Assembly (NCBI RefSeq): GCF_000379125.1
Contig: NZ_KB900626.1
Coordinates: 3,048,667 to 3,112,666, forward strand
DNA: 64,000 bases
From: Methylosinus sp. LW4
GTDB lineage: Bacteria; Pseudomonadota; Alphaproteobacteria; Rhizobiales; Beijerinckiaceae
Reading direction: 5' to 3'
Made by a program: the position numbers and the translations under genes. Numbering within the stretch: the first letter of the stretch is position 1; each line of letters starts with the position of its first letter. The notes below the pieces were generated by a model. It did not search any database, was not told the DNA's origin, and saw only the letters and a program-made list of their open reading frames with translations. Below are positions 50,205 through 59,111 of this stretch, in pieces.

Positions 50205-51515
50205 CTATAGTGGGAGACGCGCCACCAGCAGCGCGCCGCGCGGCTCCGCGGATTCGAACGTCAGCCGTCCGCCGAGCGCTGCGACGCGCTCGGCCATGCC
50301 GCGCAGCCCTATGCCTTCGCGCGCGCCCTGCGCCACGCCGGCGCCGTCGTCGCGCACGGCGACGCGCAATTCCCTCTTGCCGCAGGCCTCTATGCGCTCC
50401 ACCGTCACATCGACGCGCGTGGCGCTCGCATGGCGGAACACATTGGTGAGCCCCTCCTGCACGATGCGATAGGCGGTGAGGGCGATCGACTCGTCGAGCG
50501 GCTCCCCGGCGTCGTCGATATGGAGGCCGATCGCGACACCGGCGTCGAGATCGCGCCAGCCTTGGGCGAGCGCCTGCAGCGCGCCCTCGAGGCCCATCTC
50601 GTCCAGCGCCGCCGGCCGCAGCCGGCCGAGAATGCGGCGATTGACCTGCTGCAGCGCGCCGAGCTGCGCGTCAATATTCAGGCAATCTTCCCGGCGCGCG
50701 CCCTCGAGCTTGCGGGCCAGAGCGCCGAGCCCGGCGCGAATGCTGAACAGAAACGGGCCGATCTCGTCATGGAGGTCGCGCGCGATGTCGCGCCGCTCCT
50801 CGTCCTGCACATGAATGATGCGCTCGACCAAAGCGCGGTTTTCCGCGTCGAAACGCGCGAGCGTCTCCGCCAGCGCATCGACCCGGCCGGCGATGGCGAC
50901 GAATTCCGGCGCATCGCCGGCGACCATGCGCACGTCGCGATCGCCATGCTCGATGCGCCGCAGCGCCTCGGCGAGAGTGGAGACCGGCGCGAGGGCGCGC
51001 GAGACGACCACCGACACCACGCCGAAGCCGGCGAGCGCCAGAGCCGCCGCGCCCAGGGCCAGCGCCCAGACTTCCTCCCAAATCTCGTCGATCTCGTCGC
51101 CCGGCTCGGCGACCAGCGCCAGCTCCCCGCGCAGCCGGCCGCGCCCGTCCAGAGCGATGCGCGTCTCGCTGGGCGACCCGGCGACCAGCGCCGCGAACCA
51201 GGCCGGCGCGCGCCGCTCCTCGACCGAAGCCCCCCGGGCCTCGCCGGAGCCGACCATGAAGATATGAATGTGCCGCAGCCGATCGACATCGGCGAGCCGG
51301 CCGCGCAGCGCGGCGAGCGGATCGTCACTCTCCTCGACGCTGGCCAGCGCCGTCGCCACGAACTCGCGCGCGAGGCGCGCCGTGCTGTCCGATTCGGCGC
51401 GCACGCGCGCGGCGGCGTGCAGCGTCAGCAGGCCGACGCCCAGGGCGAGGCCGACCGCGAGCGTCGCGCCGAGCAGCGCCAGCAGCCTGGCGCGCAACGA
51501 CAATCCTTTCAGCAT
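50205..51515 (-). CDS. NarX-type sensor histidine kinase (HK1)
   Basis: Inner-membrane kinase of 436 residues. Helices at about 9-31 and 150-172 bracket a periplasmic sensor domain of about 115 residues. A HAMP linker follows, then the HisKA_3 helix with phospho-acceptor His249 in RRDIARDLHDEIGPFLFSIR, and an ATPase domain (DDGAGVAQGAREGIGLRGMA). It is paralogous to the kinase at 53205, with the same topology and a similar start (about MLKGLSLRARL). Divergent from its likely partner regulator at 51625. The stimulus is unknown; nearness to the lut genes suggests metal, alcohol or dehydrogenase status. Confidence 0.92.
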   Translation of the reverse strand: MLKGLSLRARLLALLGATLAVGLALGVGLLTLHAAARVRAESDSTARLAREFVATALASVEESDDPLAALRGRLADVDRLRHIHIFMVGSGEARGASVEERRAPAWFAALVAGSPSETRIALDGRGRLRGELALVAEPGDEIDEIWEEVWALALGAAALALAGFGVVSVVVSRALAPVSTLAEALRRIEHGDRDVRMVAGDAPEFVAIAGRVDALAETLARFDAENRALVERIIHVQDEERRDIARDLHDEIGPFLFSIRAGLGALARKLEGARREDCLNIDAQLGALQQVNRRILGRLRPAALDEMGLEGALQALAQGWRDLDAGVAIGLHIDDAGEPLDESIALTAYRIVQEGLTNVFRHASATRVDVTVERIEACGKRELRVAVRDDGAGVAQGAREGIGLRGMAERVAALGGRLTFESAEPRGALLVARLPL

Positions 51516-51624
51516 GGACCCCGCCTTTGCAAAGCGCGGCGACTTTACGTAAGGGTAGCCGCGGGTCAATCCTTGCCGGCGCTTCCGAGCGAAGCGTCCC
51601 GAAACGAGGCGTCGCGAGCGAAGA

Positions 51625-52245
51625 ATGCGTGTCCTGATCGTCGACGATCATCCGATCATCGTCTCCGGCTGCGCTTCCATGCTCGCCGGCGAAGGCGACA
51701 TAGAAGCCCGCGACGCCGGAGACGCGGAGACGGCGCTGACGCTCTTCGTCGAATGGCGGCCGGATGTTTCCGTCGTCGACATCAACCTCCCCGGCGCCTC
51801 CGGCTTCGAGCTGACGCGCCGCATGCTGCGCCACGACGAAGAGGCGCGCATCGTCATCTTTTCCATGAACGACGATCCGATCTTCGCCGCGCGCGCGATA
51901 GAGGCCGGCGCCCGCGGCTATGTGACGAAGAACGACGATCCGTTTCTGCTGCTGCGCGCGGTGCGCGAGGTGGCGGCGGGCGGCGTGTTCATGATGCCGC
52001 GGCTCGCCAATCGGCTGGCCTTCGACAAGACCGCGTCGCTCGCCAATCCTCTGGCGGAGCTGAGCTCGCGCGAGCTGGAGATTTTACGTCTGCTCGGCAA
52101 GGGCTCGAGCATGACCGAGATCGCCGACGCCGTGCATGTGTCCTACAAGACCATAGCCAACACATGCTCGCTGCTGAAGCGCAAGCTCGGCGCGCGCACG
52201 CCGATGGATCTCGTGCGCATAGCGATAGAGCAGCGCCTGGCGTGA
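51625..52245 (+). CDS. NarL/LuxR-type response regulator (RR1)
   Basis: The 206-residue protein has a receiver domain (phospho-acceptor Asp52 in VVDINLPG, acidic pair Asp7-Asp8, Lys102) and a C-terminal LuxR-type HTH near 140-200 (ELSSRELEILRLLGKGSSMT, VSYKTIANTCSLLKRKL). Divergent from HK1 by 109 bases and presumably its partner. It is a close paralogue of RR2 on the opposite strand; both keep all receiver residues, so both should be functional. PedR2/AgmR-type regulators of PQQ dehydrogenases belong to the same family. Confidence 0.93.
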   Translation: MRVLIVDDHPIIVSGCASMLAGEGDIEARDAGDAETALTLFVEWRPDVSVVDINLPGASGFELTRRMLRHDEEARIVIFSMNDDPIFAARAIEAGARGYVTKNDDPFLLLRAVREVAAGGVFMMPRLANRLAFDKTASLANPLAELSSRELEILRLLGKGSSMTEIADAVHVSYKTIANTCSLLKRKLGARTPMDLVRIAIEQRLA

Positions 52246-52258
52246 AGGGGCGTTTCTC

Positions 52259-52448
52259 CCTTCTCCCGCTCGCGGGAGAAGGTGTCGCGCGAATGCGCGA
52301 CGGATGAGGGCTCGAGGGCGCTTTCTTCCAAAACTTCCCGAAAGAAATGTCTAAAAATTCCCGCAGATAGATCGGCGCATCAGAACACGATGCGCCCTCA
52401 TCCGACCCCGCTTCGCGGGGCCACCTTCTCCCGCGAGCGGGAGAAGGA
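52259..52448. repeat. Interspersed palindromic repeat (RIME-like), family A, copy 3
   Basis: The outer hairpins CCTTCTCCCGCTCGCGGGAG and CCTTCTCCCGCGAGCGGGAG flank inner blocks CGATGAGGGC-like and GCCCTCATCCGACCCC with an extra CGCGCGAATGCGCG stem. It lies exactly between the convergent RR1 and RR2 genes, at the centre of symmetry of the two kinase-regulator pairs. Confidence 0.85.
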
Positions 52449-52468
52449 GCGCGCACGACGATCGTGGG

Positions 52469-53101
52469 TCACACCAATTCTTTCGCCAATTTATTCTCGA
52501 CGGCGATGCGGATGAGATCGGCGCGCGAGCGCGCGGCGAGCTTGCGCTTCAGCAAGGAGCAGCTGTTCGCCACCGTCTTGTAGGACACGCGCATGATATG
52601 CGCGATCTCCGCCATTCCCTTGCCTTCGGCCAGCAGGCGCAAAATCTCCAGCTCGCGGCCGCTCAGCCCCTCGAGCGGATTGGCGCCGTGCTTCTGATCG
52701 AAAAAGGCGAGCTTTTGCGCCACCTGATTGGAGAGATAGCGCTCGCCCGCGGCGACCATGCGCACCGCCTTGACGAATTGCGAAGGATCCTCGTTCTTGG
52801 CGAGATAGCCCTTGGCGCCATGCTCGATCGAGCGCGCGGCGAAGACGGGATCGTCATTCATGGTGAAGACGATCGCCTTCGTATCCGGCTTGCGCTTCAG
52901 CATGCGCCGCAGCAGCTCGAAGCCCGAGAGCCCCGGAAGATTTATGTCCAGCACAATGACGTCCGGCTGCGCCGAGGCATGCGCCTCCAGCGCGGCGTCG
53001 GCGTCGCGCGCCTCCAGCACTTCTATGTCGGATTGCCCGGACAACATGCCGCGGCATCCGGCAATCACCATGGGATGGTCGTCGACGATCAGCACGCGCA
53101 T
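52469..53101 (-). CDS. NarL/LuxR-type response regulator (RR2)
   Basis: Paralogue of RR1, 210 residues. Receiver residues Asp7, Asp8, Asp52 (VLDINLPG) and Lys102 are in place, followed by a LuxR-type HTH (GLSGRELEILRLLAEGKGMA, VSYKTVANSCSLLKRKL). It faces RR1 and is divergent from kinase HK2 by 103 bases. A candidate promoter is visible upstream. Probably acts with HK2. Confidence 0.93.
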   Translation of the reverse strand: MRVLIVDDHPMVIAGCRGMLSGQSDIEVLEARDADAALEAHASAQPDVIVLDINLPGLSGFELLRRMLKRKPDTKAIVFTMNDDPVFAARSIEHGAKGYLAKNEDPSQFVKAVRMVAAGERYLSNQVAQKLAFFDQKHGANPLEGLSGRELEILRLLAEGKGMAEIAHIMRVSYKTVANSCSLLKRKLAARSRADLIRIAVENKLAKELV

Positions 53102-53130
53102 CGGGCATAGCCATTGTTCTAGAGAAGATT

Positions 53131-53160
53131 ACTATGCGAATGCAAAAGCTTGTTTGTCAA
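53131..53160 (-). promoter_or_regulatory. Candidate promoter of RR2
   Basis: Reading leftward, TTGACA (53155-53160), an 18-base AT-rich spacer and CATAGT (53131-53136). The -35 box is a perfect consensus. The expected start is about 20 bases ahead of the RR2 start codon. It lies in the 103-base divergent gap with HK2. Confidence 0.5.
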
Positions 53161-53204
53161 TCTTCGGCGCTCGCGCCGACGCGACGCCAAAGTGGGAGCG
53201 TTCC

Positions 53205-54599
53205 ATGTCCTTGAAGGCGAGGCTCGGCTGGCTCATCGCCATCGTCCTCACGGCTATGCTCGCGGTCAATGTGGCGATCATGATCGGCCACGCCGGCCCG
53301 CGCGTGCGCGCCGAAGCGGAGAGCATAGAGCATTTGTCGCACGAGCTGGTCGAGACCGCGCTCGCCAGCGTGCAGGAGACCAAGGACCCCATCCCCTCGC
53401 TGCGCAGGCTGTTCGACAATCTGCGCAATCTGCGCCACATAGAGATAGAGATATTGCCCAATGACGATATCGCGCCGAGCTTCGACTCGAAATTGCGCAA
53501 GGAGATGCAGACCGGCGTGCCGGACTGGTTCGTGAGCCTGTTCGCGCCGACGCCCAAGATCGACATCATTCCCGCACGCATCGGCGACGTTCAATATGGC
53601 AATATCGCCATCATCTTCGATCCGGTGGACGAGCTCGCCGAAATATGGTCGGACCTGCTCTGGCTCGGCGCCATCAGCCTCGCCGTCACATTGCTGATGC
53701 TGGCGCTGGTGCTGACGCTGCTGAGCCGCACGCTCTCGCCATTCGATTCGCTGGGACGCGGCTTGGCGCGGCTCGAAGCGGGCGAGAAGGATGTGCGTCT
53801 CGATCTGCGCGGCGCCTCCGAATTCAGGAATATTTCCCAAAAGCTCAATTCGCTCGCCGCGACGCTCGATCGCGTGACGGAGGAGAATCATTCGCTCATC
53901 GATCGGCTGTTCGCCGTGCAGGATTCCGAGCGCCGCGACATCGCCCGCGATCTGCATGACGAAGCCGGCCCCTGTCTCTTCTCCATCCGCGCCGGCGCCG
54001 CGACGCTCGTCGCCGCCGCCTCGGGAAATTTTCCCGATCCCGAGCTGCTACGGCGCACCTGCGCGAATATAGACGCCGCCGGACAGGCGCTGCAGACCTT
54101 GCTGCGGCGCATGCTCGAGCGGCTGCGCCCGCCGGCGATGAGCGAGCTCGGCCTCGAGACCGCCTTGCGCGGGCTCTTCGCATCCTGGAGCGACAGCCGC
54201 GCCGATGTGCGGTTGTCGCTGCGCATCGCGCATGATCTCTCCTGCCTCGACGAGAAGATCGCGCTGACCGCCTATCGCGTGGTGCAGGAGGCGCTCACCA
54301 ATATTTTCCGCCATTCTTCGGCCGCCAACGCCGAGGCGCGGCTCGAATTCGTCGAGGCTCCGCCCGAGCTCGCCGGCGCCGAGGCGCTGCGCGTTCTCGT
54401 CGAGGACGATGGCGTCGGCCTGCCGGAGGAGCGCAGATTCGGCCTCGGCCTCATCGGCATGAGCGAGCGCGTTCATACGCTCGGCGGCGTGATGCGCATG
54501 GAGCGTCGGCCGGAGGGCGGCACGCGGATAGAGGTGCTGCTGCCGCTGCCCGAGGTGGAGGAGGCCGAGGCGGAAGAGCGCGAGAGCGACGATCTGTAG
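53205..54599 (+). CDS. NarX-type sensor histidine kinase (HK2)
   Basis: Paralogue of HK1, 464 residues, with TM helices at about 8-28 and 151-173 around a periplasmic domain of about 120 residues, then HAMP, then HisKA_3 His251 in RRDIARDLHDEAGPCLFSIR and an ATPase domain (EDDGVGLPEERRFGLGL). The C-terminus adds an acidic tail (EVEEAEAEERESDDL) lacking in HK1. The start ATG 53205 (MSLKARLGWLIAIVL) was chosen; the frame upstream is not kinase-like. It is the first rightward gene before lanM, 93 bases away, so it may regulate the lut set. Confidence 0.92.
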   Translation: MSLKARLGWLIAIVLTAMLAVNVAIMIGHAGPRVRAEAESIEHLSHELVETALASVQETKDPIPSLRRLFDNLRNLRHIEIEILPNDDIAPSFDSKLRKEMQTGVPDWFVSLFAPTPKIDIIPARIGDVQYGNIAIIFDPVDELAEIWSDLLWLGAISLAVTLLMLALVLTLLSRTLSPFDSLGRGLARLEAGEKDVRLDLRGASEFRNISQKLNSLAATLDRVTEENHSLIDRLFAVQDSERRDIARDLHDEAGPCLFSIRAGAATLVAAASGNFPDPELLRRTCANIDAAGQALQTLLRRMLERLRPPAMSELGLETALRGLFASWSDSRADVRLSLRIAHDLSCLDEKIALTAYRVVQEALTNIFRHSSAANAEARLEFVEAPPELAGAEALRVLVEDDGVGLPEERRFGLGLIGMSERVHTLGGVMRMERRPEGGTRIEVLLPLPEVEEAEAEERESDDL

Positions 54600-54692
54600 C
54601 GGAGCCATACACGAAGGTACGCTTTGTGCGATCGGCCGGCTCCGACTATATTGGGAGAATCTCGCGATATTCGTCGGGAAAAGGAGGCAAGA

Positions 54693-55097
54693 ATGACGAC
54701 CAAATTTCACATTATCGCTCTCGGCGCTGGACTTTGCTTCGCATCGGCCATGGTTGCGCAACCGGTTTTCGCCGCGCCTTCGCCGATCAAGAGCTTCGAC
54801 ACGGATAATGACGGCACACTCGATCTCGCCGAGGTGAGCAAGGCGGCCGAGGCCGTCTTCGACAAGCTCGAGAAGGACAATGACGGCACCGTCGACCGCA
54901 AGGAGGTCGGCGCGCGCATCTCCAAGAAAGATTTTGTCGCCGCCGATCCCGACGATGACAAAACGCTCACGAAAGAGGAATATCTCGCCCTCGTCGCCAA
55001 GCTGTTCAAGGCGGCGGACAAGGACGACGAAGGCACGCTCGACGCCAAGGAGCTGAAGTCCAAGGCGGGCCAGGCGCTGCTGAAGCTGATTCGCTGA
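54693..55097 (+). CDS. lanM: Lanmodulin-like periplasmic EF-hand protein
   Basis: Likely periplasmic lanthanide- or calcium-binding protein of 134 residues. A Sec signal ends near ALA/FAA at about 27-28. Four EF loops occur at 36-47, 60-71, 85-96 and 109-120, with spacings of 24, 25 and 24 residues, followed by a 14-residue tail ending ALLKLIR. From memory this equals the layout and tail of Methylorubrum lanmodulin. Key differences: only loop 3 has Pro at position 2 (DPDDDKTLTKEE); loop 2 starts with Glu, and loop 3 lacks Gly6 and Asp9. AAGGAGG precedes ATG 54693. Its neighbours are PQQ/lut genes, which supports lanthanide use. A calcium-binding alternative cannot be excluded. Confidence 0.8.
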   Translation: MTTKFHIIALGAGLCFASAMVAQPVFAAPSPIKSFDTDNDGTLDLAEVSKAAEAVFDKLEKDNDGTVDRKEVGARISKKDFVAADPDDDKTLTKEEYLALVAKLFKAADKDDEGTLDAKELKSKAGQALLKLIR

Positions 55098-55125
55098 GCG
55101 AAAGAAGGAGCGGCCGACTAGCGTC

Positions 55126-56310
55126 ATGATAAAGCGTTGCGTCATCGGGGCGTCGGTCGCCGCCTTTCTCGCCATAATTCCCGCCGCCGCCGAGCCGCTG
55201 CGGGTGAAGCTCGGCGTGCTGCGCCAGCAGCACTCCAGCGAAACATTGTCGATCCTCGACCTGCCGGCCGAGGACGACACTCTGGCCGGCGCGCTGATCG
55301 GCGTCGCCGACGACAACACCACAGGCCGCTTCACCGGCCAGAGCTATGAGGCCGTCGACGAGAAGCTCGCGCCCGGCGACGATGCGGTCGCCGCCGCGCA
55401 AAAGCTGCTCGACCAGGGCGCCGTGGCGATACTCGCCGATCTTTCCGCCGACGATCTTCTGCATGTCGCCGACGCGCTGAAATCACGCGACGCGCTCGTC
55501 CTCAATGTGAGCGCGGCCGACGACAGGCTGCGCGAGGAAGATTGCCGCGCCAATGTCATTCATGTCGCGCCGACGCGCTCCATGCTCACAGACGGGCTGG
55601 CGCAATATCTCGTCTGGAAGCAATGGCGCCGCTGGCTCGTCATCAAAGGCTCGCACCCGGAGGACGAGCTGCTCGCCGCCGCCTATCGCGCCAGCGCGAA
55701 GAAATTCGGCGCCAAGATCGTCGACGAGCGCGTCTATGTCGACACCGAGGGCGGGCGCCGCTCCGATTCCGGCAGCGTGCAGACGCAGCGGCTGATTCCG
55801 CCGCTGACGCAGGGCGCGAATTATGACGTGCTGATCGCCGCGGATGAGAGCGAGGTGTTCGGCAATTATCTGCCCTATCGCACTTTCGATCCGCGGCCGG
55901 TCGCCGGCGCGGCCGGGCTCGTTCCGACGAGCTGGGACGCCTCTCATGAGCAATGGGGCGCGGTGCAGCTGCAAAACCGCTTCCGCGCGCAGTTTCACCG
56001 CGGCATGAACGCGCGCGATCATCAGGCCTGGATCGCCGCGCGCATGATCGGCGAGGCCGTCACCCGCGCCGCCTCCGCCGATCCGAAGGCGCTGCGCGAC
56101 TATCTTTTGGGTCCTGAATTCACCATTGCCGCCTTCAAAGGCGTGCGCCTGTCGCTGCGGCCCTGGAATCGTCAGCTGCGCCAGCCTATCCTGCTCGGCG
56201 ACGGACGCATGATCGTCTCGGTGTCGCCGCAGGACGGCTTCCTGCATCAAACCTCCGAGCTCGACACATTGGGCGTCGACAAGCCCGAAACCAAATGCAG
56301 GCTGAAATGA
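55126..56310 (+). CDS. lutA: Periplasmic binding protein of PQQ-dehydrogenase-associated ABC system (LutA-like)
   Basis: The 394-residue protein has a Sec signal (IGASVAAFLAIIPAAAEP) and a periplasmic-binding fold of the branched-chain amino acid type. It matches the family annotated as substrate-binding protein of the PQQ-dependent alcohol dehydrogenase system: LGVLRQQHSSETLSILDLPA, YLVWKQWRRWLVIKGSHPED, VFGNYLPYRTFDPRPVAGAA and LRPWNRQLRQPILLGDGRMI. In Methylorubrum the related LutA belongs to the lanthanide uptake cluster. Its stop overlaps the next start (ATGA). Symbol inferred by cluster similarity. Confidence 0.85.
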   Translation: MIKRCVIGASVAAFLAIIPAAAEPLRVKLGVLRQQHSSETLSILDLPAEDDTLAGALIGVADDNTTGRFTGQSYEAVDEKLAPGDDAVAAAQKLLDQGAVAILADLSADDLLHVADALKSRDALVLNVSAADDRLREEDCRANVIHVAPTRSMLTDGLAQYLVWKQWRRWLVIKGSHPEDELLAAAYRASAKKFGAKIVDERVYVDTEGGRRSDSGSVQTQRLIPPLTQGANYDVLIAADESEVFGNYLPYRTFDPRPVAGAAGLVPTSWDASHEQWGAVQLQNRFRAQFHRGMNARDHQAWIAARMIGEAVTRAASADPKALRDYLLGPEFTIAAFKGVRLSLRPWNRQLRQPILLGDGRMIVSVSPQDGFLHQTSELDTLGVDKPETKCRLK

Positions 56311-57446
56311 AAACGAAGACGCTGACCAATAACCTTCGTGCGCGACTCCTTCTCCCGCTCGCGGGAGAAGGTGGCCCCACGAAGTGGGGTCGGATGAGGG
56401 TCCATTCGGGACAGCTCGGCGGCTCGCCCTCATCCGTCGCGCATTCGCGCGACGCCTTCTCCCTCGAGTGGGAGAAGGGGAGCGCGCTGGTTCGATCGCT
56501 CGCCCTTCTCGCAATCGTGAGCGCCTCTCCTGCGCAGGCCTTCACCGCCTATGTCAGCAATGAGAAAGGCAATAGCGTCACCATCATCGACACCGACAAG
56601 ATGGAGGCGATCAAGACCATCAAGGTCGGGCGCAGACCGCGCGGCATAGAGATCTCCAAGGATAATTCCGAGGTCTATATCTGCGCCGGCGACGACGACA
56701 CGATTCAGGTGCTCGACACCAAGACGCTCAAGATCACCGGCAATCTGCCCTCCGGCCCCGATCCCGAGCTGATGATATTGAGCCCGGACGGCAAGACCGT
56801 CTACGTGTCCAACGAGAACGACAATCTCGTCACCATGATCGACACCAAGACCAAGCGCCAAGTGGGCGACGTGCCTGTCGGCGTCGAGCCGGAAGGCATG
56901 GCGGTGAGCCCGGACGGACGCATTCTCGTCAACACGTCCGAGACCACCAATATGGCGCATCTCATCGACACGCAGACGAAGCAGATCATCGCCAATGTGC
57001 TGGTCGACGCGCGCCCGCGCTTCGCCGCCTTCAAGCCGGACGCCTCCGAGCTGTGGGTGTCTTCGGAAATCGGCGGCACCGTCGCCGTCATCGATCCGCA
57101 GAGCCATAAGGTGACGCAGAAAATCCGCTTCGAGGTTCCGGGCCTTTCAAAAGAGGCGATCCAGCCGATCGGCATCGCCTTCACCAATGACGGCAAGCGC
57201 GCCTTTGTCGCGCTCGGCCCCGCCAATCGCGTCGCGGTCATCGACACGGCAACGAAGAAAATCGAAAAATATCTGCTCGTCGGGCAGCGCGTCTGGCATC
57301 TCGCCTTCACGCCGGACGAGAAATATCTCCTGACCGCCAATGGCGTCTCCAATGATATTTCCATCGTCGACGCCGCGAGCCTCAAAGTGCTGAAGTCCAT
57401 TCCCGTCGGCGCCTTCCCCTGGGGTATTGCGGTGGCGACGAAGTGA
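56307..57446 (+). CDS. lutD: YVTN beta-propeller protein (LutD-like) with a repeat inserted in its N-terminus
   Basis: Periplasmic seven-bladed propeller of the PQQ-dependent catabolism-associated type. The 379-residue frame from ATG 56307 overlaps the lutA stop. Residues 59-379 carry a signal-like segment (SALVRSLALLAIVSASPAQA) and about seven repeats of the form VYVSNENDNLVTMIDTKT. Residues 15-58 are translated from a family A repeat (PLAGEGG... WEKG) that keeps frame. Without it, MKTKTLTNNLRAR would join SALVRSLALLA as a normal signal peptide. Whether the expanded signal works or translation restarts downstream (for example ATG 56395) is unclear. The ATPase gene overlaps its stop. Confidence 0.85.
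   Translation: MKTKTLTNNLRARLLLPLAGEGGPTKWGRMRVHSGQLGGSPSSVAHSRDAFSLEWEKGSALVRSLALLAIVSASPAQAFTAYVSNEKGNSVTIIDTDKMEAIKTIKVGRRPRGIEISKDNSEVYICAGDDDTIQVLDTKTLKITGNLPSGPDPELMILSPDGKTVYVSNENDNLVTMIDTKTKRQVGDVPVGVEPEGMAVSPDGRILVNTSETTNMAHLIDTQTKQIIANVLVDARPRFAAFKPDASELWVSSEIGGTVAVIDPQSHKVTQKIRFEVPGLSKEAIQPIGIAFTNDGKRAFVALGPANRVAVIDTATKKIEKYLLVGQRVWHLAFTPDEKYLLTANGVSNDISIVDAASLKVLKSIPVGAFPWGIAVATK
56348..56480. repeat. Interspersed palindromic repeat (RIME-like), family A, copy 4, inside lutD
   Basis: Outer hairpins CCTTCTCCCGCTCGCGGGAG and CCTTCTCCCTCGAGTGGGAG, with inner CCCCACGAAGTGGGG, CGGATGAGGG, CCCTCATCCG and CGCGCATTCGCGCG blocks. These are the same modules as in the copy at 52259-52448. 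The element is within one codon of 132 bases, a multiple of three, so the reading frame survives. Confidence 0.88.
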
Positions 57447-58195
57447 GCGACGAACCGCTCGCGCTCGACGTCGCGCATATCGGCCACAGCTATGGCGCGC
57501 GGCGCGCGCTGGACGATGTGAGCTTCTCCGTCGCGGCGGGAAGCTTCACCGTTCTGCTCGGCCTCAATGGCGCCGGCAAGAGCACGCTCTTCTCGCTCAT
57601 CACGCGTCTCTACGCCGCGCGCGAGGGAAAGATCGCGATCTTCGGCCATGATGTCGCGCGCGAGAGCGGCGCGGCGCTGCGCCGGCTCGGCGTCGTCTTC
57701 CAAGCGCGCACGCTCGATCTCGAATTGAGCGTGATGCAGAATTTCATCTATCACGCCGCGCTGCACGGCATCGGCCCCGGCGAGGCGAAGCGACGCGGCG
57801 CCGCGCTGCTGGAGCGCGCCGGCCTCGCCGATCGCGCCAAGGACAAGGCGCGCGATCTCTCCGGCGGGCAAATGCGCCGCGTCGAAATATTGCGCGCGCT
57901 GCTGCACGAGCCACGCCTGCTGCTGCTCGACGAGCCGACCGTCGGCCTCGACATAAAGGCGCGCGCCGATATTCTCGCGCAAGTGCGCGCGCTGGTCGCC
58001 GAGCGCAAGCTCGCCGTGCTGTGGACCACGCATCTCATCGACGAGGTGACGCCGAGCGACGATGTCGTCGTGCTGCATCAAGGCAAGGTTCTGGCCGCCG
58101 ACACATCGGCCAATATCATGGCGGCGACAAGAACCGACAACATCGGCGCCGCCTTCGAGCGCCTGACCGGCGCGAAGGCGCGGGACGCGGCGTGA
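57443..58195 (+). CDS. lutE: ABC transporter ATP-binding protein, PQQ-dehydrogenase-associated (LutE-like)
   Basis: ATPase of 250 residues that pairs with the permease at 58287. Walker A GLNGAGKS is at 40-47, the signature is DLSGGQMRRVEILRAL and Walker B LLLLDEPTVGLD. The GTG start overlaps the propeller stop. The distinctive SVMQNFIYHAALHGIGPGEA after the Q-loop fits the family annotated as ATP-binding subunit of the PQQ-dependent alcohol dehydrogenase system. A family C repeat separates it from the permease gene. Confidence 0.88.
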   Translation: MSDEPLALDVAHIGHSYGARRALDDVSFSVAAGSFTVLLGLNGAGKSTLFSLITRLYAAREGKIAIFGHDVARESGAALRRLGVVFQARTLDLELSVMQNFIYHAALHGIGPGEAKRRGAALLERAGLADRAKDKARDLSGGQMRRVEILRALLHEPRLLLLDEPTVGLDIKARADILAQVRALVAERKLAVLWTTHLIDEVTPSDDVVVLHQGKVLAADTSANIMAATRTDNIGAAFERLTGAKARDAA

Positions 58196-58210
58196 TGCGG
58201 CCCTTGCGAT

Positions 58211-58268
58211 GCGAGCCTGAAGGCTCGCGGGCCGCCTCACGCCATGGACCGCGAGCCTTCAGGCTCGC
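58211..58268. repeat. Dispersed inverted repeat, family C, copy 2
   Basis: Arms 58211-58230 and 58249-58268 are identical in sequence to the two arms at 5261-5316, with an 18-base loop instead of 16. Part of the loop (CATGGA before the second arm) is also shared. It lies in the 91-base gap between lutE and lutF. Confidence 0.85.
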
Positions 58269-58286
58269 TCTCAGAATGGAATTTCT

Positions 58287-59111
58287 ATGATGCGCGAAAC
58301 AAGCGGCTTCACCGCGCGCCAATACGCCATCTGCCTCGCCGGCGTCGTCTGGCGCGAAGCCTTGCGCTTTCTGCATCAGCGAGAGCGCTTCGTCTCCGCG
58401 CTGGTGCGGCCCTTGGTTTGGCTGCTCATCTTCGCGGCGGGCTTTCGCCAGGTGCTCGGCGTCTCCATCATCCCGCCCTATGAAACCTATGTGCTCTACG
58501 AGGTCTATATCACGCCGGGATTGATGGCGATGATCCAGCTGTTCAACGGCATGCAGTCCTCGCTGTCGATGGTCTATGACCGCGAGATGGGCAATATGCG
58601 CACGCTGCTGGTCTCGCCCTTTCCGCGCTGGTATTTGCTCGGCGCCAAGCTTCTCGCCGGCGTCGCCGTGTCGATATTGCAAGTCTACGCCTATCTCTTC
58701 ATCGCCTATTTCTGGGAGATCGAGCCGCCGACGCCGCTCGGCTATCTCACCGTGCTACCGGCGCTCATGCTCGCGGGCTTGATGTTCGGCGCGCTCGGCA
58801 TGCTGCTCTCCTCCGCGATCAAGCAGCTGGAGAATTTCGCGGGCGTGATGAATTTCGTCATCTTTCCGATGTTCTTCGCCTCCTCCGCGCTCTATCCGCT
58901 ATGGCGCGTGCAGGAGTCGAGCCCCGTCCTCTATTGGATTTGCCTCGTCAATCCCTTCACCCATGCGGTGGAGCTGATCCGCTTCGCCTTTTATGAGAAA
59001 ATCTCCTGGGACTCGCTCGCCGCCGTGGCCGGCTACACGAGCTTCTTCTCCGCCGGCGCGCTCATCGCCTATGATCCAGCCAAGGGAATGCTGATGCGCA
59101 AGGGCGGCTGA
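58287..59111 (+). CDS. lutF: ABC transporter permease, PQQ-dehydrogenase-associated (LutF/PedC-like)
   Basis: ABC-2 type permease of 274 residues with about six membrane segments. Motifs include FVSALVRPLVWLLIFAAGFR, YVLYEVYITPGLMAMIQLFN and FASSALYPLWRVQESSPVLY. The family is annotated as an alcohol-related ABC permease (PedC). The ABC-2 fold is more often linked to export, so the direction of transport is not settled. Two adjacent ATGs at 58287 and 58290. The last gene of the rightward lut set; it converges with the nitroreductase gene. Confidence 0.88.
   Translation: MMRETSGFTARQYAICLAGVVWREALRFLHQRERFVSALVRPLVWLLIFAAGFRQVLGVSIIPPYETYVLYEVYITPGLMAMIQLFNGMQSSLSMVYDREMGNMRTLLVSPFPRWYLLGAKLLAGVAVSILQVYAYLFIAYFWEIEPPTPLGYLTVLPALMLAGLMFGALGMLLSSAIKQLENFAGVMNFVIFPMFFASSALYPLWRVQESSPVLYWICLVNPFTHAVELIRFAFYEKISWDSLAAVAGYTSFFSAGALIAYDPAKGMLMRKGG

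Follow-up and report, generated by a model that had tools for sequence, protein, structure and literature searches.

Do the genes that follow the lanmodulin gene of Methylosinus sp. LW4 form a lanthanide import system, and are the two sensor pairs in front of it rare-earth sensors? The locus that raises this question occupies positions 50205..59111 of a 64,000-nt (nucleotide) stretch of contig NZ_KB900626.1 (assembly GCF_000379125.1); this whole stretch, here called the window, sits on a contig of 3.97 Mb in a genome of 4.82 Mb in three contigs. We read it, with a probability of about 0.68, as the locus by which a Methylosinus-type methanotroph handles and imports lanthanides, accompanied by its probable lanthanide-responsive regulators. 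The uptake set itself is known from M. extorquens and P. putida, and the sensor pairs are the added result. Literature is cited by PubMed Central number, in each case from the part of the article available.

All nine genes are intact and stand in the order given by an earlier, sequence-only reading: HK1, RR1, RR2, HK2, lanM, lutA, lutB, lutE and lutF, where HK denotes a histidine kinase and RR a response regulator. The names LutA, LutB, LutE and LutF follow Roszczenko-Jasinska et al. (PMC7391723), with LutB as the YVTN protein after PMC9291206. The features are as follows.

50205..51569, minus strand: HK1, sensor histidine kinase of the lanM/lut-linked lineage (HisKA_3 and HATPase_c; LapD_MoxY_N 23.2 bits, cut-off 25; 17-row clade, 97/97)
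51625..52245, plus strand: RR1, NarL/LuxR-type response regulator, divergent partner of HK1 (Response_reg and GerE; 14-row clade, 100/98)
52469..53101, minus strand: RR2, response regulator of the mxaB-position clade (Response_reg and GerE; 12-row clade, 100/99, including seven mxaD-adjacent regulators)
53205..54599, plus strand: HK2, sensor histidine kinase of the mxaY-position clade (HisKA_3 and HATPase_c; 16-row clade, 100/100)
54623..54652, plus strand: promoter-like TTTGTG-18-TATATT in the gap between HK2 and lanM, read by eye
54693..55097, plus strand: lanM, lanmodulin of 134 amino acids (aa) (NCBIfam LanM NF053806, 162.8 bits, cut-off 135)
55126..56310, plus strand: lutA, periplasmic substrate-binding protein (TIGR03863, 467.0 bits, cut-off 413.6)
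56295..57446, plus strand: lutB, YVTN beta-propeller (TIGR03866, 505.4 bits, cut-off 287.3)
57443..58195, plus strand: lutE, ATPase of an ATP-binding cassette (ABC) system (TIGR03864, 333.7 bits, cut-off 302.25)
58287..59111, plus strand: lutF, ABC-2 type permease (TIGR03861, 399.6 bits, cut-off 241.35)

HK1 measures 454 aa if it starts at TTG, and Met18 (~51518) is the probable start; HK2 most likely starts at ATG 53205 within a longer open frame, which gives 464 aa, and the start of lutB is uncertain between 56295 and about 56490.

The lanthanide genes of the locus and the genome

The five rightward proteins had been read from the letters alone as lanmodulin (LanM), binding protein, YVTN propeller, ATPase and permease, and all five score above the curated NCBIfam cut-offs. 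The binding protein, ATPase and permease, which might have fallen in unrelated transporter families, belong exactly to the lut/ped ABC families, as does the propeller. The second-best family of LutE is DrrA-type (182.5 bits, under that family's cut-off), and relatives of LutA in the PDB are weak by sequence (best E 0.019). LanM is the single LanM match in the genome, with an N-terminus that looks signal-like by eye and four EF loops at residues 36-47, 60-71, 85-96 and 109-120. It matches the solved Mex-LanM structure 6mi5 at E 3.1e-28 and 8fns at about 1e-28, and also 9pi2 and 8dq2, which we take to be Hans-LanM; its closest named records come from Methylosinus sp. Ce-a6, M. sporium, a Methylocystaceae metagenome-assembled genome and Methylosinus sp. 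Sm6.

The window was thought to lack both a TonB receptor and a dehydrogenase, and it contains neither a PF00593 nor a TIGR03075 match; both were found elsewhere in the genome. Three pyrroloquinoline quinone (PQQ) dehydrogenases are encoded, two of which carry the DYD motif that we take to mark the XoxF type; the third, without DYD, is taken as MxaF by its surroundings. One of the two XoxF-type dehydrogenases is on the 0.84 Mb contig (C2:436390-438093), with a TonB-receptor match ~8 kb away (C2:427226). TonB barrels number 69 in the 4.8 Mb, several of them clustered on C2, a large metallophore uptake repertoire. With the receptor that lies between HK1 and lanM in Methylocystis-type genomes as query, a single match at E 1e-3 was obtained among 34 candidates scored: a protein on the same contig as the locus, 1.9 Mb away (C1:1183307-1185280, 541 bits). 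It shares 42% identity with the receptor flanked by lutG and lanM in a Methylobacterium-type genome, and with that receptor as query the next best among 30 of the 69 receptor loci reaches 49 bits; by this similarity we take it as a LutH-like receptor. Because LanM and four lut families pass their cut-offs, and DYD dehydrogenases and a LutH-like receptor are present in the genome, we regard the locus as a real lanthanide handling and uptake locus.

The genes from lanM onwards may be read as a single transcript, since 28 bases separate lanM from lutA, lutB overlaps lutE and lutE is followed by lutF after 91 bases. In the 93-base gap behind HK2, lanM probably has a promoter of its own: variants of TTTGTG-18-TATATT were seen by eye in all seven Methylosinus-type lanM upstream regions, the window counted, and in none of those from genus groups g18 (Methylocystis) or g34. 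We compared the DNA upstream of lanM (16 loci), of mxaF, of the two XoxF genes and of the LutH-like gene, and in the two gaps between divergent kinase and regulator genes. This comparison, made by eye without a motif program, showed no common palindrome or shared regulator-binding motif; the promoter-like element was the sole conserved element, in Methylosinus only.

Conservation of the layout and linkage of the sensors

A search for LanM across 199 genomes of the family gave 73 places at E 4.1e-26 or better in 60 genomes; 60 of these places were read (59 regions and the window), with five of the 13 unread belonging to genus g9, and neighbouring genes were scored by tblastn with the proteins of the window. 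The order lanM-lutA-lutB-lutE-lutF is found at all eight LanM places of the window's genus (the window counted) and at six of nine in g18, where one of the three exceptions sits on a 5 kb contig. As this order is kept across genera, the layout is conserved and no chance arrangement. A kinase and a regulator of the HK1/HK2 kind share the region in those same eight and six places; the distance varies, and in L091 and L092 ~9 kb separate the pair from lutF, and 13 kb separate it from lanM. Both pairs are not always present: lanM of genome G079 is adjoined by HK2/RR2 only, with HK1/RR1 30 kb away, and Methylosinus sp. Ce-a6 has HK1/RR1 only. In Methylosinus sp. Sm6 (L008/L091), genes resembling type I restriction-modification systems by eye lie directly upstream of lanM, at the position of the sensor genes of other strains. 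A LutH-like receptor stands between HK1 and lanM in five of the six g18 regions, and in g34 a regulator lies directly upstream of lanM at all six places, where no LutA, LutB or LutF match was found.

LanM (at the threshold above) also co-occurs with an HK1-like kinase (best eight candidates scored, E 1e-50) across the 199 genomes: 54 have both, 6 LanM only, 11 the kinase only and 128 neither (p 1e-30, a value inflated by kinship). Genome G106, of the same genus (2.8 Mb, 99% complete), has neither at these thresholds. Among 297 genomes of the order, LutA was found in 102, an HK1-like kinase (1e-30) in 61 and both in 59, and the kinase lies within 15 kb of lutA in at least 23 of these 59, where ~1.7 would be expected from random places in 4 Mb genomes. 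The figure of 23 is a lower bound, since only the top five kinase candidates per genome were scored; coordinates do not separate the HK1 lineage from other kinases, and nine of the 23 are g44/g55 genomes (taken as Bradyrhizobium-type), so that kinship counts in this excess too.

When 398 genomes of the phylum were searched with the MxaY inferred for M. silvestris (L214; 473 aa, matching the length given in PMC9291206), 32 had a match, and one region each was read from 20, mostly the better matches. All seven g44/g55 regions hold a LutH-like gene, a kinase, a regulator and lutABEFG; lut genes and a kinase occur together in three others (L254, L261, L262), and mxaF with a kinase in two (L251, L252). 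In region L194 (g17), lutFEBA, a LutH-like receptor, HK1, RR1, a pqqB-like gene and a XoxF-like dehydrogenase (40%) lie within 18 kb, with no LanM match.

Two sensor lineages and a conserved acidic motif

The sequence-only reading had named two NarX/NarL-type pairs upstream of lanM. Two kinase/regulator pairs are indeed there, with the H, N and G boxes of both kinases and the conserved aspartates of both regulators all present, but the kinases are not relatives of NarX: the cut-off of that family is 578 bits, HK1 reaches 52.1 and HK2 58.1, and nitrate sensing of the NarX/NarL kind was rejected on this ground. By sequence, HK1 and HK2 belong to the HisKA_3 kinases; their sensor parts show a similarity, under the Pfam cut-off, to the LapD/MoxY domain present in MxaY (PMC6115532), and PF16448 is precomputed for several close relatives of HK1.

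Within residues 51-236 of HK1, only E58, D157, E158 and E161 are invariant acidic residues among 57 sequences (HK1, HK2 and 55 HK1 homologs), and the last three form the motif P-x-D-E-[ILV]-x-E-[IV]-W. An AlphaFold2 model of HK1 (mean predicted local distance difference test score 81.1, predicted template modeling score 0.49) places the motif at the start of a helix, residues 156-206, that runs through the second membrane span. A structure search with this model gave mostly kinase-core structures such as DesK among the 50 PDB matches listed, with a WalK-YycH model of poor root-mean-square deviation in the top row, and we assign no fold to the periplasmic part on this basis. The motif glutamates of HK2 are residues 143 and 146, numbered from ATG 53205. 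The pattern D-E-x-x-E-x-W is shared by 54 of 66 related kinases, including the inferred M. silvestris MxaY. Among 30 loci examined from the phylum-wide search, several kinases did not have the exact motif or were unreadable by script. In M. buryatense, MxaY runs the lanthanide switch, and its variant E147G is constitutively active with and without lanthanum; E147 is conserved and lies outside the kinase domains (PMC5018670). E147 of this protein probably falls in the P-x-D-E-x-x-E-x-W motif.

Phylogenetic analysis separates the two pairs by their neighborhood. For 16 of the 17 HK1-clade kinases and 13 of the 14 RR1-clade regulators, the region read also contains lanM, lut or LutH-like genes; the pair of G079 is the exception. 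The HK2 clade (16 rows) consists of seven kinases flanking mxaD, one adjoining mxaF, five lanM-adjacent kinases of the window's genus and three orphans; these last, in L178, L185 and L186, come from three Methylosinus-type genomes, with similar surroundings and no adjacent regulator match. In a wider tree of 71 kinases, calculated after removal of 15 near-duplicate or long rows, the HK1, HK2, g34 and g44/g55 kinases form one 44-row clade (100/99) with four branches, one of them mxa-linked. Lanthanide (lanM, lut or LutH-like) or mxa genes are present in the read regions of 37 of the 44 rows, the exceptions being L178, L185, L186, L189, L191, L196 and L203.

HK2 of this genome adjoins lanM and is not located in the mxa cluster, and no pair of its kind was seen by eye downstream of mxaD in the gene list of its region (L105). 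That mxaYB simply moved, within Methylosinus, from a place beside mxaD to one beside lanM was rejected for HK2 (approximately unbiased test, p 1.9e-6) and weakly for RR2 (p 0.024), values that are optimistic since the tested group was picked after the trees were seen. A diverged pair that replaced mxaYB, or was retained, fits better. Other kinases of the genome stand apart: besides HK1, HK2 has one match, at 32%, which belongs to a third, distant kinase/regulator pair (L023 11464-13622, C1 ~3.63 Mb) with no lanthanide genes recognized in the adjacent gene list; and two kinase genes that are of another type by eye (one hybrid, one PAS-like) lie ~7 kb upstream of mxaF (L024 2-2925, C1).

A lanthanide locus with probable sensors, weighed against other readings

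The locus can be compared with four known or related systems. Like the lut cluster of Methylorubrum extorquens AM1 (lutA-H, lanM), it unites the LutA, LutB, LutE and LutF families with LanM, whereas here lanM is first in the row and, of the further lut families, LutG and LutH were looked for in L086, a region nearly identical to this one, and gave no match beside it. The ped cluster of P. putida KT2440 has the same four ABC families beside a two-component system with a LuxR-type regulator: pedA1A2BC adjoins the pedS2/pedR2 lanthanide switch (PMC12997753). It differs in containing dehydrogenases; P. putida has no LutH homolog, and LanM is not among the genes listed in the available part of that article. 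The MxaY/MxaB switch of M. buryatense shares the HisKA_3 kinase and the NarL-type regulator, and its LapD/MoxY sensor part is resembled here at scores under the Pfam cut-off; the HK2/RR2 clade lies beside mxaD or mxaF elsewhere, whereas here it adjoins lanM-lut with a second, lut-linked pair next to it. The g44/g55 cassette shares the ABC genes, and its kinase falls with HK1 and HK2 in the 44-row clade, whereas its regions include a LutH-like gene and LutG, three of the seven also xoxF/xoxG, and no LanM match. The sequence-only reading had called the layout compact and different from the reference cluster. The locus is a compact one of a known kind. A sensor pair beside lut ABC genes is not confined to this genome: it recurs in others and, as PedS2/PedR2, in Pseudomonas (PMC12997753), so that the theme was already known.

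We found no description of a LapD/MoxY-type pair as a regular component of the lut/lanM loci of Alphaproteobacteria, which is weak evidence of absence since most subscription journals were outside the coverage. According to the part available, M. trichosporium OB3b has no close homologs of MxcQE/MxbDM (PMC9291206), and an article on Bradyrhizobium mentions lut homologs, with the words histidine kinase, response regulator and regulator absent from the main text available (PMC12628762).

Because both sensor pairs resemble the calcium/rare-earth enzyme switch, they are likely candidates for rare-earth sensors by analogy. The substrate, direction of transport, signals and target promoters that we propose would be the following. 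A lanthanide, probably chelated, would pass the outer membrane through the LutH-like receptor; periplasmic LanM would buffer it for the two XoxF-type dehydrogenases, and LutA and LutB would pass it to LutE/LutF for import. HK1/RR1 would read the lanthanide status of the periplasm and set the expression of lanM and lut, and the MxaF/XoxF switch would be set by HK2/RR2, which is related to the pair that occupies the mxaYB position in other Methylocystaceae. If the two kinases behave like MxaY and PedS2, they would be active while lanthanide is absent and damped when it is present.

Several observations weigh against this reading. LutF belongs to the ABC-2 type transporters, many of which are exporters. 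The LapD_MoxY_N matches of both kinases fall under the Pfam cut-off of 25 (HK1 23.2, HK2 19.6 bits), and the acidic motif is absent from 12 of the 66 related kinases, six of which are the whole clade around L102 and L206_3688, partly xoxF/lut-linked. The inferred M. silvestris MxaY lies in another clade than HK2 and outside the 44-row clade; HK2 thus resembles MxaY in family and position without being its close ortholog. Linkage is incomplete: 36 of the 59 genomes with lutA and a kinase match do not have the two within 15 kb, and eight of the 20 wider kinase regions hold no visible lut, mxa or LutH-like gene. In g34 the kinase is away from the regulator in four of six genomes and beside it in two, although in three of the four it adjoins a LutH-like gene elsewhere. 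None of the ten g9 (Methylobacterium-type) lanM regions read holds such a pair, unlike the two MxaY-like pairs that adjoin here, though four of the ten hold lut genes (LutA, LutB, LutF and LutG 65-92% identical to Methylorubrum salsuginis proteins). Expression or metal-binding data for this genome were looked for and none were found, and in M. trichosporium OB3b LanM stays under the detection threshold of proteomics with and without lanthanide (PMC12482762).

MoxY-type systems are regulators of methanol utilization, and LanM and the transporter might serve lanthanides while the sensor pairs sense methanol, formaldehyde or the status of PQQ enzymes, being neighbors through shared methylotrophy. 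Several related kinases adjoin mxaF or mxaD, and mxaY of OB3b has been annotated as encoding a putative methanol utilization control sensor protein (PMC3615186). We nevertheless consider this rather unlikely: pairs of the HK1 lineage and those of g44/g55, from the same larger clade, sit with lut, lanM or LutH-like genes and not with mxa genes, and in M. buryatense MxaY itself drives the lanthanide switch (PMC5018670).

It is improbable that LanM has weakened or shifted to calcium, with the locus a relic or devoted to a different metal. The position-2 proline, a feature of Mex-LanM, is found in one of four loops (loop 3), loop 2 begins with E and loop 3 carries T at position 9, and the poor detection of the OB3b protein would agree with such a loss. 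Yet the EF loops keep a spacing of 12-13 residues, D9 is present in loops 1, 2 and 4, the LanM equivalog cut-off is exceeded and the pattern of one P2 and three D9 is common to all eight LanM copies of the window's genus. Least credible is detoxification, in which the ABC system would export or extract a chelator, lipid or PQQ-enzyme-related compound and LanM would guard against lanthanide toxicity: the ABC-2 permease, the DrrA-type runner-up of LutE and the annotation of the P. putida ATPase PedB as efflux (PMC12997753) speak for it, and the retention of lanthanum in the periplasm of M. extorquens lutA, lutE and lutF mutants (PMC7391723) and the necessity of PedA1A2BC for PedH-dependent growth of P. 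putida (PMC12997753) against it.

Within the reading as a lanthanide locus with sensors, a more specific history is possible, although we lean against it in this full form: HK1/RR1 would be the founding type of alphaproteobacterial lanthanide-uptake sensor, reading periplasmic lanthanide through the acidic motif atop the second membrane helix and controlling lanM, lut and LutH genes; its duplicate would have been recruited to the calcium/lanthanide methanol dehydrogenase switch in Methylocystaceae, and both would stand side by side in the uptake-and-switch locus of this Methylosinus group.

The locus thus names two concrete rare-earth sensor candidates for alphaproteobacterial methanotrophs, one lineage of which is linked to lanM and lut in several genera. 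The three conserved acidic residues of the motif are targets for mutagenesis, and the compact native set of LanM, ABC system and sensors may be usable for rare-earth biosensing and recovery.

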